From a candidate division FCPU426 bacterium (GTDB taxonomy: Bacteria > Oederibacteriota > Muellerivitia > Muellerivitales > Muellerivitaceae), in NCBI GenBank assembly GCA_003152075.1, contig PLZG01000098.1, positions 1-64,000 on the forward strand: a stretch of 64,000 nucleotides of DNA, given 5' to 3'. Position 1 is the first letter of the stretch; each line of letters opens with the position of its first letter. The translations under genes were made by a program, and so were the position numbers. This document shows positions 9,922-14,846 of this stretch, in pieces. Below the pieces are notes generated by a model that was not told the origin of the DNA, did not search any database, and worked only from the letters and a program-made list of their open reading frames with translations.

Positions 9922-9986
9922 GACCAATTCTACTCCCCTCCCTTCCTCGCTCCTTTCAAATCCTCCAACTATTTGCCCCTTCAAAC
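9922..9986. repeat. 65-bp direct repeat, copy A
   Basis: Starts gaccaattctactcccc and ends tttgccccttcaaac. The same sequence with scattered differences is copy B at 11361-11426. Copy A overlaps the last codons and stop of the SecY-like gene and lies 52 bp upstream of the beta-barrel start. Copy B lies 21 bp upstream of the SecY-like start. The copies therefore flank the SecY-like gene, and each precedes a minus-strand gene. Confidence 0.7.
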
Positions 9987-11339
9987 TACCTTGTATTTAA
10001 CCGTCGCGAGAAGGGCGCGGGACTTCTCCACCTCTTCCTCCGGGACAAGCAGCCTCATTTTATAGAGTGGATCGAACCAAAACAGGAGCCTTCTATAACC
10101 ATAGGCTTGGATGTAAAAAGAGATTCCTTCTGCTTGGAAAAGGCCCTTTAAATAGCTGGCCAAATGCACGTTGTCCATCTCCAAAAGTTCCACGCCCGGT
10201 CCATAAAACCGCCAAAATTCCCACTGGGCCCAAAAATCCCGTACGACCGCCAAAAGAAAAATGAGAGAACCTAAACTTGTGATTCCATAAAGAGATCCTA
10301 TGTTTTTATCCAGCGGCATCCAAAAAAGAAACGATCCCGCCAAAAGAACGGCAATACCCTTGAGAAATTGTTTATCCAAAATCTTTTCGCGCCTTTTCAA
10401 ATAGGTCGGTAGATTCCCCACCGAAAGCCCAAAAACATCAATATCCCCATAAATCCAGTTGTAGAAAAGCAAACCCAGAGGCACGATTAGGACGCATTCA
10501 AAAGCAATGTGGGGCCAACCTTGTTTAAGCCAATGGGGAAAAATCTCGGCGAAGGTAAAAAAAGCGTAAGTAGTGGAAAGGGTGGTAATGGCGGCGTAAT
10601 GAGGTTCCAAGCCGGAAGGAAAGGGTGATATTTCATACCACAACCTTTTTCTATCCGCTAATTTCATCGGAATCCTCGGAGCCTTTGCGATGAATTTCCA
10701 GAGAAAAACCGCTATAACCGCGAAGAGGACGTAAATCACTAAGACCATAAATCTCTCGTAACCAAGTGTGCTTAATACAACAAATTCCCCCAAATGTTTG
10801 GACACATGCCTGCATAGACCTTCAAACCATTCAGCTAAAAGGAGAACCAAGAAACCGTTGCCCACTCCAAATCGGGTGATCAGTTGGGCGATCCAAAGGG
10901 CCAGGAAAGTACCGGCTGTTAAGGTAACGACATTGAGAAAATGAAAAAGGAGCGGGGAGGAATAATAGGGTGAATAGGAACCCACGAGCACCTTAACCGA
11001 ATAACTGTTTCCCAAGGCTCGAATGAGGGTAATGACCAAGGTGATTGCGAAGGCGCAAAAATTTATCTTTTCCCTGCCGGTAGTCCCTTCAAGCCGCCAA
11101 CGCGCCATCGGTTTGATAATCAGGGAAAATATTTCAGCGATTAAAAATCCATCAATGATCGGGCCAAGCCCCATGGCGAGGATGCTGATTTGAGAAATCT
11201 GGTCGCCCTTCATCCTGAATAGGACACCGTAAATAGAAACAGCCGTGGGAAGGGGGACCCAAAAAAGACCCATAAAGATGGCCGCGAGAGCGAGGGTCCA
11301 GAAGAAGGAATTCCCGTAAGATTTAGTGTTTGGAGTCAT
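9981..11339 (-). CDS. Divergent SecY-like membrane protein with C-terminal DUF2007-like domain
   Basis: 452 residues from the ATG at 11339 (AAAGGATGATATG). At least nine hydrophobic segments. Several spans recall SecY: MGLGPIIDGFLIAEIFSLI (compare SecY TM2), then a loop EGTTGREKINFCAFAITLVITLIRALGNS (compare the EGREGRRKI-type cytosolic loop and TM3), and WIAQLITRFGVGNGFLVLLL near residue 150 (compare the ITERGIGNGISLII signature). Loop and motif residues are otherwise degenerate. From about residue 380 a soluble tail, LLEMDNVHLASYLKGLFQAEGI through LLVPEEEVEKSRALL, looks like DUF2007. The gene is isolated from ribosomal genes, so it is probably not the housekeeping translocon channel. Confidence 0.65.
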   Translation of the reverse strand: MTPNTKSYGNSFFWTLALAAIFMGLFWVPLPTAVSIYGVLFRMKGDQISQISILAMGLGPIIDGFLIAEIFSLIIKPMARWRLEGTTGREKINFCAFAITLVITLIRALGNSYSVKVLVGSYSPYYSSPLLFHFLNVVTLTAGTFLALWIAQLITRFGVGNGFLVLLLAEWFEGLCRHVSKHLGEFVVLSTLGYERFMVLVIYVLFAVIAVFLWKFIAKAPRIPMKLADRKRLWYEISPFPSGLEPHYAAITTLSTTYAFFTFAEIFPHWLKQGWPHIAFECVLIVPLGLLFYNWIYGDIDVFGLSVGNLPTYLKRREKILDKQFLKGIAVLLAGSFLFWMPLDKNIGSLYGITSLGSLIFLLAVVRDFWAQWEFWRFYGPGVELLEMDNVHLASYLKGLFQAEGISFYIQAYGYRRLLFWFDPLYKMRLLVPEEEVEKSRALLATVKYKVV

Positions 11340-11360
11340 ATCATCCTTTTTAAAATACCC

Positions 11361-11426
11361 GACCAATTCTACTCCCCCTCCCCCGCGCCCCCTTTTCAAA
11401 TCCTCAAACTATTTGGTTCTTCAAAC
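11361..11426. repeat. 65-bp direct repeat, copy B
   Basis: Second copy of the sequence at 9922-9986, starting gaccaattctactcccc and ending tttggttcttcaaac. It sits immediately upstream of the SecY-like start codon, in the place expected for a promoter or leader. Confidence 0.7.
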
Positions 11427-11498: not shown

Positions 11499-13736
11499 TT
11501 AAGGCACCAATAATTCCATCCTTTGCCTTTTGGGATTAAAAGGCCTTGCCATACGGAGGTTGCTGGGAAGCGGCCCACCCTTCCAATCCTCCGGAGTCAC
11601 CACATAAAGGTAATGTTTCCCGGGAGTTAGGGAATCCAAGGCCCCTTCGATATAGTTCTTCCCTTGCGGTTGATTCGAGTCACTATCCAAACTCCAAATA
11701 CCATCCCCAAATTGAAGGGCCGCCAAGTCGGCGGGGCTATCGGCCCACAATGCCGCCACTTTTCCCGAATTATCCAACCGTAGGCCTTGGGACAAGTAGG
11801 GCATGCCGCTAATTGGGGGATGCGCGTGGGTCGCCGCCCCGATCCAAAACTCAAAGGCCGATAACAAATGCCTTAAGGCCTCGGGAGTGGCGCATTGCAC
11901 GAGGAAAGGCCGTTTCATTCCGTTGACCACCAGGCCCAATTGGTACAACTGTTTGGCTTTTGTTTTTATCTCATCGCAATGGATGGCCTTCACGTCCTCC
12001 CAGTAAAACTCAATCTTCCCGGGCCCGCCCAGGATGCCCTCGATGGGCAATCCGCCCCCGTAGGTCAGGGTGAAGCCGGTCATGGCCGGGGAAACCGACA
12101 GGACTTTTTGCTTGTCATGCCCCACGATCAGGGAATATTTTTCCGGGTCCTGCAGGTCCCCCAGCCTCTTGACGGACATATCCGCGCTCATGATATCGAC
12201 CTGGAAAGTCACCATCTTGATCCGGGCGGGAAGTGGAATGGCCTCCATTTCGGCTTCCAAATAACTTCGGTCCTCGATGTCGGAATTCCAAGGAACGGCT
12301 TTTGGCGAAGGTGAGGAAACAACTTTTGTAACAGGTTTAAAAGTAGAAAGGTGCAAAGGTTTTGAATCTTTGGGATTAGTGGAAGTTGCCTTGGCATCCC
12401 GGTGCATTGGTGGTTCCGCCAAGGTTGTTGTGGTTCCATTACCAATTGTTTCGTCTTTCTTGGCGATCGTGGCGTCGTGGCGGTTAAATGCTGTTGTCGT
12501 GCTGTCGCCTGCTGTTGGTAATTTCTCCGTTCCCCATCCCCTCCCATAAAACCAAACCGCCCCCAACAGCAAAACCAGTAAACCCGTGCGGAGGGGTTGC
12601 TTAGCGAAGGCCCCGAAAAGACTAAGCGCCAAAACAACCCCCAAGAAAATAGCCAAGCCCAAATGTTCCTGGGCCAGGCGCCAGACCCAGGCCGGGAAAT
12701 CCACCGCCACCAGGTAAGCCAGGAAGCGGAAGGGATATTCCACCCAGGGCTTGAGGACCGGGGAAAAGCGTGCGGCCAGGCCGCCCAGCACGACCCACCA
12801 GAAAACCAACTGGCAGAGGCTATAGACCCCCCAATGCAGAACCACGGGAACCGGATTGGTCAAACCCGAACTGGCGCCTCTATGTTTATGGCCGGATGCA
12901 TGGGACTGATGTAAGGGTACGACTTGATTAGCCACCCACTTGAAGACATAGTGGAGGTGCTTCAAGGACCAATGCCAGAAAATCCGCGCTACCCACTTTC
13001 CGTTTTTCACCGTGTCTTTAACAACTGCTTTTAACTCGGGGTGCTTTTTGGCCGCCTTGGGATGTTGGGAAGGCTTTGGGATGGATGGGGACCCCACCAA
13101 CAGGGTATCAATGGCCGCGCCGACACGCTGGCCCCAGCTTCGGGCTGGCAAGGCGGGGGTATCTGTCGGGGTAAAGGTCACCTCCTCTGCGGATTGGGGA
13201 GGTTCACCCCCGGAAAGTGGGGGTGTATGGTTTTCGCGGTTAGCTGTCGACTGTGGACTTCCAACCCGTTCGATGGACTCAGGGCCCTGAGGCTCTCGAA
13301 GGGCTGTCGACTGCCTTTTAACTTTAGGCCCAGGGGTCCTTTTGGTGGGGGTTGCCATGGGGTCAAACTCCCCCACCGGCTTACCGCTGACGATCCATTC
13401 CACCAAGTACTCGATTTGAATGGTTGTTAGTTCGCGGGTTAGGACCAGGTCCAGGGCTGGATGGAAGGCGCCAGGAAGATCCCCAACCTTGCCATTCAAC
13501 CCAGCCAGGGCCAAGGCGTTTCGAAAGGACATGAAATAAGGCATCGCCGACCGGACCTTTTGGATAGCGGGAAGATCAAAACAATCATTTAATTTTAAAA
13601 ACTCGTAAACTTGGCTTTTCTCGAGCTTTAAGGCCTTTTGAATTTCAGGGGTTTTTGAATTGGGTTTTGCTTGAAGGTGTTTCTTAAGGTCTTCCAGCCG
13701 ATCCAACCAAACTAAAGATTTTGATTTAAAACCCAT
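11499..13736 (-). CDS. Membrane protein with ParB/KorB-like HTH, PH-like and PDZ-like domains
   Basis: 745 residues from the ATG at 13736 (GAGG upstream). Residues about 30-85 resemble the ParB/KorB helix-turn-helix: TPEIQKALKLEKSQVYEFLKL, then a recognition-type helix and FRNALALAGL. A Ser/Pro/Thr-rich linker (about 125-230) follows, then several membrane spans between about 300 and 400. Beyond the membrane are a beta-rich PH-like region (about 505-635) and a PDZ-like C-terminus (GLRLDNSGKVAALWADSPADLAALQFGDGIWSLD, from about 642). No ParB nuclease/CTPase box is seen. A 21-bp iteron array lies directly upstream, so the HTH may bind it. I do not know a described family with this order of domains. 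Confidence 0.65.
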   Translation of the reverse strand: MGFKSKSLVWLDRLEDLKKHLQAKPNSKTPEIQKALKLEKSQVYEFLKLNDCFDLPAIQKVRSAMPYFMSFRNALALAGLNGKVGDLPGAFHPALDLVLTRELTTIQIEYLVEWIVSGKPVGEFDPMATPTKRTPGPKVKRQSTALREPQGPESIERVGSPQSTANRENHTPPLSGGEPPQSAEEVTFTPTDTPALPARSWGQRVGAAIDTLLVGSPSIPKPSQHPKAAKKHPELKAVVKDTVKNGKWVARIFWHWSLKHLHYVFKWVANQVVPLHQSHASGHKHRGASSGLTNPVPVVLHWGVYSLCQLVFWWVVLGGLAARFSPVLKPWVEYPFRFLAYLVAVDFPAWVWRLAQEHLGLAIFLGVVLALSLFGAFAKQPLRTGLLVLLLGAVWFYGRGWGTEKLPTAGDSTTTAFNRHDATIAKKDETIGNGTTTTLAEPPMHRDAKATSTNPKDSKPLHLSTFKPVTKVVSSPSPKAVPWNSDIEDRSYLEAEMEAIPLPARIKMVTFQVDIMSADMSVKRLGDLQDPEKYSLIVGHDKQKVLSVSPAMTGFTLTYGGGLPIEGILGGPGKIEFYWEDVKAIHCDEIKTKAKQLYQLGLVVNGMKRPFLVQCATPEALRHLLSAFEFWIGAATHAHPPISGMPYLSQGLRLDNSGKVAALWADSPADLAALQFGDGIWSLDSDSNQPQGKNYIEGALDSLTPGKHYLYVVTPEDWKGGPLPSNLRMARPFNPKRQRMELLVP
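13245..13315. repeat. Dispersed palindromic repeat inside the coding linker
   Basis: The stretch contains tagctgtcgactgtgg, cagggccctgaggctctcg and ggctgtcgactgcc, all recognisable pieces of common intergenic repeats. In the host gene frame it encodes STALREPQGPESIERV, and the opposite strand gives the FDGLRALxLSKG type of peptide. It therefore looks like a short palindromic element that inserted in frame into the disordered linker of the 745-residue protein. A similar ctgtcgactgtc motif lies at 27855-27885. Confidence 0.6.
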
Positions 13737-14147
13737 GTGAACCTCAAATTCCGGCAATGAGCCAAGTTTTTCCGACAATCAACCCGGTCTTTTCCGACAA
13801 TGAGCCGGGTCTTTCCGACAGTCAACCCGGCTTTTCCGACAATGACCAAGGTTTTTCCGGCAGCAAACCCGGCTTTTCCGGCAATGGGCCGGTCTTATCC
13901 GGCAGACAACCCTGCCCCGGTCAATGAGCGATGCCTTGTGGGACGGGAGTAATTTACAAGAATCGAATTTTTAGCTTCAAGGGGAAGGGGGATGGAAATT
14001 TTACGGGGGACTGGAATTTATAAAAAACTGCAACCTTATTGACCTGCATCGGCTCCCGGTCGGCAGTCCGCAGTTGAAAAGAGTCAAATAAGGCGGTTCG
14101 GTGGAACAAAACCCGGTTCCCAGCGGATTTTATGTTGTCTGACTTCC
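13737..14147. other. 411-bp intergenic region: iterons plus unassigned sequence
   Basis: The first 170 bp hold the 21-bp repeat array described separately. The remaining 240 bp (13907-14147) hold no open reading frame or strong hairpin that I can support. A promoter for the 745-residue gene must lie here or within the array, but no consensus pair stands out. The stretch also contains the end of the ispH operon transcript. Confidence 0.6.
13749..13906. repeat. Iteron-like array: eight copies of a 21-bp unit
   Basis: The core TTCCGACAAT (variants TTCCGGCAAT, TTCCGACAGT, TTCCGGCAGC, ATCCGGCAGA) starts at 13749, 13770, 13792, 13813, 13834, 13855, 13876 and 13897. Seven steps are 21 or 22 bp, two helical turns, so all copies face the same side. 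A decayed ninth copy may lie near 13916. Flanks alternate between gagcc and caaccc types; acccggct and agccgggt in neighbouring units are inverse complements, giving a 42-bp higher-order pattern. The array starts 13 bp upstream of the start codon of the ParB-HTH membrane protein. The layout resembles plasmid iterons or an operator/partition site. Confidence 0.85.
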
Positions 14148-14846
14148 CTATCGCGTTCCGCGCCAGAACCTGAAGATGCCCGCCAAGATTACGGCTTCCC
14201 CGGCGGCAAATAATACCCAGTTGTAATTCCCGGGTACAAAGTGCGAAAAAATCTTTTGGAACTCCCCATAGGCCGGGAGGGAAAATAAATCCTTGAAATG
14301 ATTCCCTGACGCGATTAACCGGCCATAGTCGATGAGGAAAGTATAGAGCATCATGAACCCGCCCGTGAACCATAAGGCCCAATCTCCGGGCCGGGGGTTC
14401 TTTTCCGAACAGAGCAGGCAGTAAGCCAATAGGATCATCGTCAAGGACCCGATCACCGGCGCGAGGACCGGACCGACCCAGGGCCAGGGAATGAGGAATA
14501 ACAGATCATAGGTCAGCAATGATTCCGGCCAGTTCAGGGCGGCCTTCAGCCAGATATAGTAAAAGAGGTCCCATACCGCGAAAGCGAACAGGAAATAAGC
14601 AAACCTGTTTTTAAGGCTGGAAGCGGCCAGATAAGCGACGCCCAGAAGCATCACCAGGGTTGAAATTTCCCGGAGCACCTCGATGGGAAGGACGTCCGGC
14701 CCCATGAACTTCTCAAAGGGAAAACCGAAGCCGTTCGGGCAATAGAGCATCCGCAGGTAAATCACCACCGCGCTTTCGAGGTAGCCCATGGCCACCGCGA
14801 AGAGGGCCACCACCACGATTTTTTTATGTTCCTGTTTCCACATCAA
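14148..14846 (-). CDS. Conserved multi-spanning membrane protein of unknown function
   Basis: 232 residues with about seven hydrophobic segments. Characteristic stretches are MGYLESAVVIYLRMLYCPNGFGFPFEKF at the start, FAVWDLFYYIWLKAALNWPESLLTYDLLFLIPWPWVGPVLAPV in the centre and FIDYG-like LIDYGRL later. I recognise it as one of a widespread unnamed membrane family, not a characterised protein. It is the last gene of the ispH operon, and its ATG overlaps the stop of the 511-residue gene by four bases, so the two are translationally coupled and probably partners. Confidence 0.7.
   Translation of the reverse strand: MMWKQEHKKIVVVALFAVAMGYLESAVVIYLRMLYCPNGFGFPFEKFMGPDVLPIEVLREISTLVMLLGVAYLAASSLKNRFAYFLFAFAVWDLFYYIWLKAALNWPESLLTYDLLFLIPWPWVGPVLAPVIGSLTMILLAYCLLCSEKNPRPGDWALWFTGGFMMLYTFLIDYGRLIASGNHFKDLFSLPAYGEFQKIFSHFVPGNYNWVLFAAGEAVILAGIFRFWRGTR

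Follow-up and report, generated by a model that had tools for sequence, protein, structure and literature searches.

Direct-repeat arrays upstream of membrane-anchored, ParB-type HTH proteins that lack the CTPase domain: putative private binding sites in a candidate-phylum bacterium

ParB and its paralog Noc, the nucleoid occlusion protein, load on DNA as CTP-dependent clamps at single palindromes and then spread (PMC8429893, PMC12704722). Noc also brings DNA to the membrane, and a Noc protein furnished with an artificial transmembrane anchor gave no functional rescue in B. subtilis (PMC4331003), so that a permanent anchor need not confer Noc-like activity and caution is due where nucleoid occlusion is considered. 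Segregation with no known motor is also carried out by RocS of Streptococcus pneumoniae, a single DNA-binding protein that fixes DNA to the membrane, and by Par of plasmid pSK1, a one-gene partition system (PMC11500499). In plasmid R388, direct repeats (the stbDRs) surround the promoter of the gene that encodes the binding protein, StbA, motif copies occur at other promoters, and DNA positioning is independent of a ParA-like partner (PMC3098194). A PNAS 2025 survey of ParB-CTPase fold fusions has established that the ParB fold is often recombined with other domains; its main text never uses the word 'transmembrane' (PMC12704722).

These systems are the closest known to the locus described here, which lies in a window of 64 kb (the whole stretch of DNA that was analysed), and all of them are analogies. 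The window protein shares with Noc a ParB-type HTH, Noc and ParB being the best fold matches of its HTH domain, and the further likeness, namely specific sites scattered on the chromosome and DNA brought to the membrane, is conditional for the window system (PMC4331003, PMC8429893). Noc retains the CTPase domain and works by spreading from single palindromic 16-bp sites, whereas the window protein has no CTPase domain and is accompanied by direct-repeat arrays; likewise, the anchor of Noc is an N-terminal amphipathic helix under CTP control, and that predicted for the window protein consists of hydrophobic segments placed after the HTH. RocS and pSK1 Par differ in having an unrelated winged HTH (MerR-type), a coiled coil and DUF536, and RocS is anchored by an amphipathic helix (PMC11500499). 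The stbDRs of R388 are plasmid-borne 9-bp repeats placed every 11 bp, and the partial text of the source reports neither membrane segments nor a ParB-family relation for StbA (PMC3098194). With respect to the fusion survey, the window protein represents the converse case, a ParB HTH without the CTPase fold (PMC12704722).

The first-pass annotation of the window had described eight direct repeats of about 21 bp, with a 42-bp alternation, directly upstream of the gene, and both TRF and autocorrelation confirmed them. The array occupies 13749..13918 of the minus strand, where the in-register count gives eight units of 21-22 bp that alternate in an A/B pattern of 42 bp: 13749-13769, 13770-13791, 13792-13812, 13813-13833, 13834-13854, 13855-13875, 13876-13896 and 13897-13918, with unit starts spaced by 21, 22, 21, 21, 21, 21 and 21 bp. 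Read in the gene sense, each unit is formed by a core, TTGYCGGAA, and a linker, and CCGGGTT recurs in alternate linkers. TRF reports the array with a period of 21 (13749-13886, 6.5 copies, score 120) and of 42 (13749-13912, 3.9 copies, score 198), and finds no other tandem array across the whole 64-kb window. The lag-42 autocorrelation reaches 54.2 in the 450 bp upstream of the gene, versus a maximum of 13.0 in 60 shuffles. As the unit corresponds to two helical turns, all sites of the array are expected to face the same side of the DNA. A gap of 12 bp separates the array from the ATG at 13736, which is preceded at about 8 nt by GAGG, and an alternative, longer TTG start (13778) falls within the array itself. 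No inverted repeats were found in positions 13300-14300 of the window, the sites thus being direct repeats and not palindromic parS or NBS sites. The term iteron, in its plasmid-replication sense, did not survive: an iteron replication origin was discarded because no Rep gene was recognised and the contig, of 240 kb and chromosomal type, carries leuC/leuD.

The gene that follows the array (11499..13736, minus strand) is an open reading frame with paralogs and encodes a 745-aa ParB-type HTH protein, predicted to be membrane-anchored, for which Pfam returns no family match. Its residues 1-126 (13359..13736, minus strand) form a ParB/Noc-type HTH domain, as indicated by the AlphaFold2 model, its fold matches and hhalign. 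The model, built from an 18-sequence alignment, is all-helical (pLDDT 88), and its ten best PDB fold matches in Foldseek are all Noc or ParB, with probabilities of 0.99-1.0 and TMq of 0.49-0.59, although with E values of only about 0.05-0.2. Moreover, a profile of the HTH-only proteins aligns to homologues containing the ParB N-domain with an hhalign E of 2.7e-10, matching the HTH just behind that domain. The ParB-type HTH proposed by the first-pass annotation was borne out. Searches with the HTH profile returned only designed TPR proteins among PDB sequences (E > 0.09) and no match in the viral contigs searched, and the window protein had no match in the genome contig collection searched. The predicted recognition helix, placed at residues 40-52 (13581..13619, minus strand) by predicted secondary structure, sits, judging from column identities, in a stretch that is among the most diverged in the four HTH-only paralogs described below.

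Behind the HTH, a hydropathy scan detects hydrophobic membrane segments at about residues 298-405 (12522..12845, minus strand), in agreement with the earlier placement of such segments between the HTH and the C-domain; their number and topology are tentative. For the C-terminal 254 residues the model is poorer (pLDDT 62). They include a PH-like domain at about residues 534-636 (11829..12137, minus strand), with pLDDT mostly of 70-85 and one loop of about 44, and the fold matches of the C-domain are weak but consistent, mostly to PH and FERM domains. A possible PDZ-like C-terminus at about residues 641-745 (11502..11816, minus strand) is poorly modelled in the window protein and derives from a PDZ_2 match in the paralog C109 (E 3.9e-4, below the gathering score). 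The order HTH, membrane segments and PH/PDZ-like domain given by the first-pass annotation is right, its PH-like part being backed by the fold matches and its PDZ part being the least certain.

The genome that contains the window (G000) is a metagenome assembly of 4.1 Mb in 114 contigs, in which contigs break within or close to these repeats. The PH/PDZ-like C-domain is common to seven further genes of this genome, and homologues in relatives of the same family occur without it. Two kinds of protein can be distinguished. Kind (i) combines the ParB N-domain with the HTH, and mostly with membrane segments as well, and gives profile matches to Spo0J (5e-21), Noc (2e-16) and also ParB, as well as to Pfam ParB_N. 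Kind (ii) starts with the HTH, the ParB N-domain being missing, and comprises the window protein (C13) and three paralogs named after their contigs, C54, C31 and C82. Both alignment and Pfam find the ParB N-terminal CTPase domain, with its GxxR and ENxxR boxes, absent from these four and present in C99, C109 and others. Among the genomes examined, HTH-only genes were seen in G000 only; the other genome of the same genus has canonical-type ParB only. A separate canonical-type ParB of 288 aa is encoded on C96 of G000. Of the neighbouring genes in the stretches read, none was recognisably ParA-like, and there was no adjacent parS. Within kind (i), the proteins of G000 C108 (L072 4707-6224) and G006 C69 (L084 4856-6619) apparently carry two tandem ParB-N/HTH modules, with no obvious membrane segment; the C99 gene (L026 6940-8766) adjoins caspase-like (by eye) and hydrolase-like genes; and the C39 copy (L030 3885-4139, 4118-5669) has a frameshift and is cut off by the contig end, which may reflect either an assembly error or a pseudogene.

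An alternating 21-22-bp array lies directly upstream of all four kind (ii) genes (C13, C54, C31 and C82), with periods of 42, 43, 44/22 and 43. By autocorrelation and TRF, a comparable array is found upstream of 0 of 21 kind (i) homologues: five in G000 (C99, C109, C36, C39, C108), five in G001, a candidate division FCPU426 bacterium (DAIDGV01; C9, C10, C23, C3, C24), three in G002 (C29, C56, C60), one in G003 (C329), two in G004 (C102, C143), three in G006 (C43, C69, C70) and two in G029 (C155, C102), the calls in G029 resting on TRF and inspection of the upstream DNA instead of autocorrelation. The lone repeat signal among these 21, a 15-bp repeat upstream of G002 C29, was set aside for its period. 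Two canonical-type ParBs likewise have no upstream array. If the genes were independent, 4/4 versus 0/21 would correspond to P = 1/12650; since the four array genes are paralogs, the true weight of the comparison is smaller, and the association may stem from one ancestral event. The expectation that the gene is always preceded by repeats of about 21 bp thus holds for the HTH-only paralogs and fails for the homologues with a ParB N-domain, which assigns the array to the HTH-only branch and rules it out as a feature of the whole family. In the relative G006, a tandem array of about 51/104 bp stands beside a degenerate ParB-like match (C45; L086 3941-4329).

The four arrays have different cores, which in gene sense are TTGYCGGAA (C13), GTTGGCAT (C54), CCATAGACA (C31) and CGGTAGACG (C82). 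Within each array the core is strongly kept, with a pairwise identity of 0.92, 1.0, 1.0 and 0.97, respectively, and linkers have identities of 0.50-0.59 (for C13, 0.53 in the linker versus 0.92 in the core). The longest conserved run reached permutation P values of 0.0002 (C31) and 0.012 (C82), with weak outcomes of 0.086 for C13 and 0.13 for C54; these values are descriptive because the cores were defined after looking. Spacing is continuous, so that no unit with a broken core was skipped, save for a stretch of N in C54 and an inserted repeat in C31, whose array (L025 4262-4439) is split by an interspersed repeat-like sequence (TGTCATTCCGAGG...). A fixed-orientation alignment of the four cores was dropped, given that the shared CCGGGTT linker gave another register.

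On the far side of the array, a promoter-like control region (13946..14026, minus strand, from the alignment of C13, C54 and C82), containing TTGA...TTGTAAATTA, is conserved over about 80-98 bp at these three loci, with 81% identity between C54 and C82 and 73% to C13. BLAST of the fetched DNA matches this region at the C13, C54 and C82 loci only, the C82 copy, used as query against the whole genome, recovers C82 and C54, and a sigma-70 promoter scan found nothing. The cores, which lie between this conserved control region and the gene, differ. The reader of the site behaves similarly: HTH alignment columns 21-60, which cover the helix-turn-recognition helix, are 13-35% identical among the paralogs, whereas columns 81-130 are 58-75% and the C-domain 55-79% identical. 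That site and reader both diverge while their surroundings stay is, with four pairs, suggestive. Overall, the window array is quite probably the binding site of the adjacent protein, and each paralog would bind its own array.

Arrays with the same cores exist elsewhere in the genome; neither these nor the family of four genes, each with its array, had been accessible to the first-pass annotation. A whole-genome paired-core pattern search located C82-type arrays at C31:71746-71967 and C90:15414-15592, in which the core identity is 1.0 versus 0.54 and 0.57 for the linkers (longest conserved run, P 0.009 and 0.007 for the two), a C54-type array at C90:67063-67133 and a C31-type array where contig C8 begins, as well as a single C13-type pair beside the C31:71.7k array. 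All the extra arrays are intergenic or at a contig end; protein searches gave no ParB-type gene at them, the surrounding ORFs being of other kinds. For the one core tested, C82, tandem arrays occur in no other of 45 genomes of the phylum, and the three isolated C82-core pairs of G009 are at the level of control counts. GTCTGGCTACGCC-type repeats flank the arrays at C31:71k.

An any-sequence scan for arrays, covering about 1.84 of the 4.1 Mb of G000, also gave coding-like repeats of 18/24-bp units, set aside by eye; the only other arrays of similar period were C31:72308-72376 and C10:7-97. The former, a 21-bp repeat (TTACAATAATTGGAAGTCCAT), lies upstream of a gene that begins with an HTH-like part and also carries HATPase and a STAS-like DUF4325; it may be another sort of operator array, used for autoregulation. 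The latter, with four repeats of 23 bp, is located at the left end of an IS21 copy (istA with Mu-transpos_C_2/rve; IstB_IS21). As IS21 ends are known to carry direct repeats spaced 23 bp (PMC10122671), the arrays studied here could be imagined as transposon-end-like repeats, or as minisatellites near genes, and not as sites for the adjacent protein; the same-core arrays that exist without a ParB-type gene and the interspersed repeat that splits the C31 array would fit such an origin. Nevertheless, no transposase lies near the four gene arrays, neither istA/istB nor another, and no second array or end appears across the genes, on which basis IS21 or other transposon ends were rejected there. 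In addition, the unit sequences are unlike the IS21 repeat, the array is in the same place at 4/4 HTH-only genes despite differing cores, and the core is kept while the linker drifts, all of which renders this origin improbable.

Far less probable still is that the array acts as RNA, in the form of a repeated hairpin leader of the mRNA. The sense strand of the window array does fold better than shuffles (z of -2.3 and -3.5 in two runs), which can be attributed to partial complementarity of neighbouring linkers, whereas the other five arrays have sense z values of -0.96 to +1.38 and Rfam gives nothing above the gathering score. A structured RNA was discarded for these reasons, only 1/6 arrays folding clearly better than shuffles.

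Taking the arrays as protein-binding sites, the model that we somewhat favour is that they are private to membrane-anchored, CTPase-less ParB-type proteins and serve autoregulation and, probably, DNA-membrane tethering. The ancestor would have been a membrane-anchored ParB-type protein with a CTPase-like N-domain, an HTH and membrane segments, from which the lineage of the window protein lost the N-domain. Having lost it, the window protein would be unable to load as a sliding clamp, and a phased array of 8-11 sites would replace clamp spreading by gathering many protein copies in one place. Because the array is located between the control region and the start codon, autoregulation is predicted, the protein on its own array repressing or tuning its own gene, and because the same protein carries membrane segments, the protein-array complex is predicted to pin the array DNA to the membrane. 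Finally, duplication of the gene, after which the recognition helix and the array core changed in parallel, would have produced at least four pairs of differing specificity in one genome, some of them with further arrays elsewhere.

The first-pass annotation had proposed either a tether or an autoregulator. The arrays do accompany the gene, and those with the same cores at four other places argue against a role that is autoregulatory only. It could still be argued that these proteins are simply membrane-gated transcription factors, following a ToxR/CadC-like logic, in which the C-domain senses a signal and the HTH on the arrays sets the expression of its own gene and of the genes beside the other arrays, with no positional role in the chromosome. 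Consistent with this, the array at three loci has a conserved control region on one side and the start codon on the other, and the C90:67063 array is found about 280 bp upstream of a GGDEF/EAL-type gene (by eye). However, the C31:71.7k and C90:15.4k arrays do not adjoin a promoter closely, the distances to the start of the next gene on the same strand being about 430 and 800 bp, and an ordinary operator would hardly need as many as 8-11 sites, which leaves a purely transcriptional function rather unlikely. More tentatively, and with less confidence than the combination of autoregulation and tethering, the four or more pairs might act as orthogonal 'addresses' that fasten chosen loci to the membrane, array multiplicity replacing the CTP sliding clamp.

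If tethering by private arrays is correct, the system would represent a natural experiment on ParB-type function without the CTPase, in which many sites are set against one site plus sliding. It would also supply paired protein and site sequences with apparently joint divergence, useful for learning the ParB HTH code, protein/array pairs that could serve as tools for labelling or tethering, and a possible means by which little-studied candidate-phylum bacteria hold chromosomal loci at the membrane.

Directly downstream of the window gene, positions 9981-11399 encode a SecY paralog (PF00344, E 4.7e-24) whose C-terminus is DUF2007-like; next to the C54 and C31 paralogs, no gene of this sort was recognised. 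The C82 gene is followed downstream by a second copy of the PDZ-like C-terminal end, and an apparent CPBP-type membrane protease gene, recognised by eye, is situated between the two (L028 3023-3298, 3359-4216).
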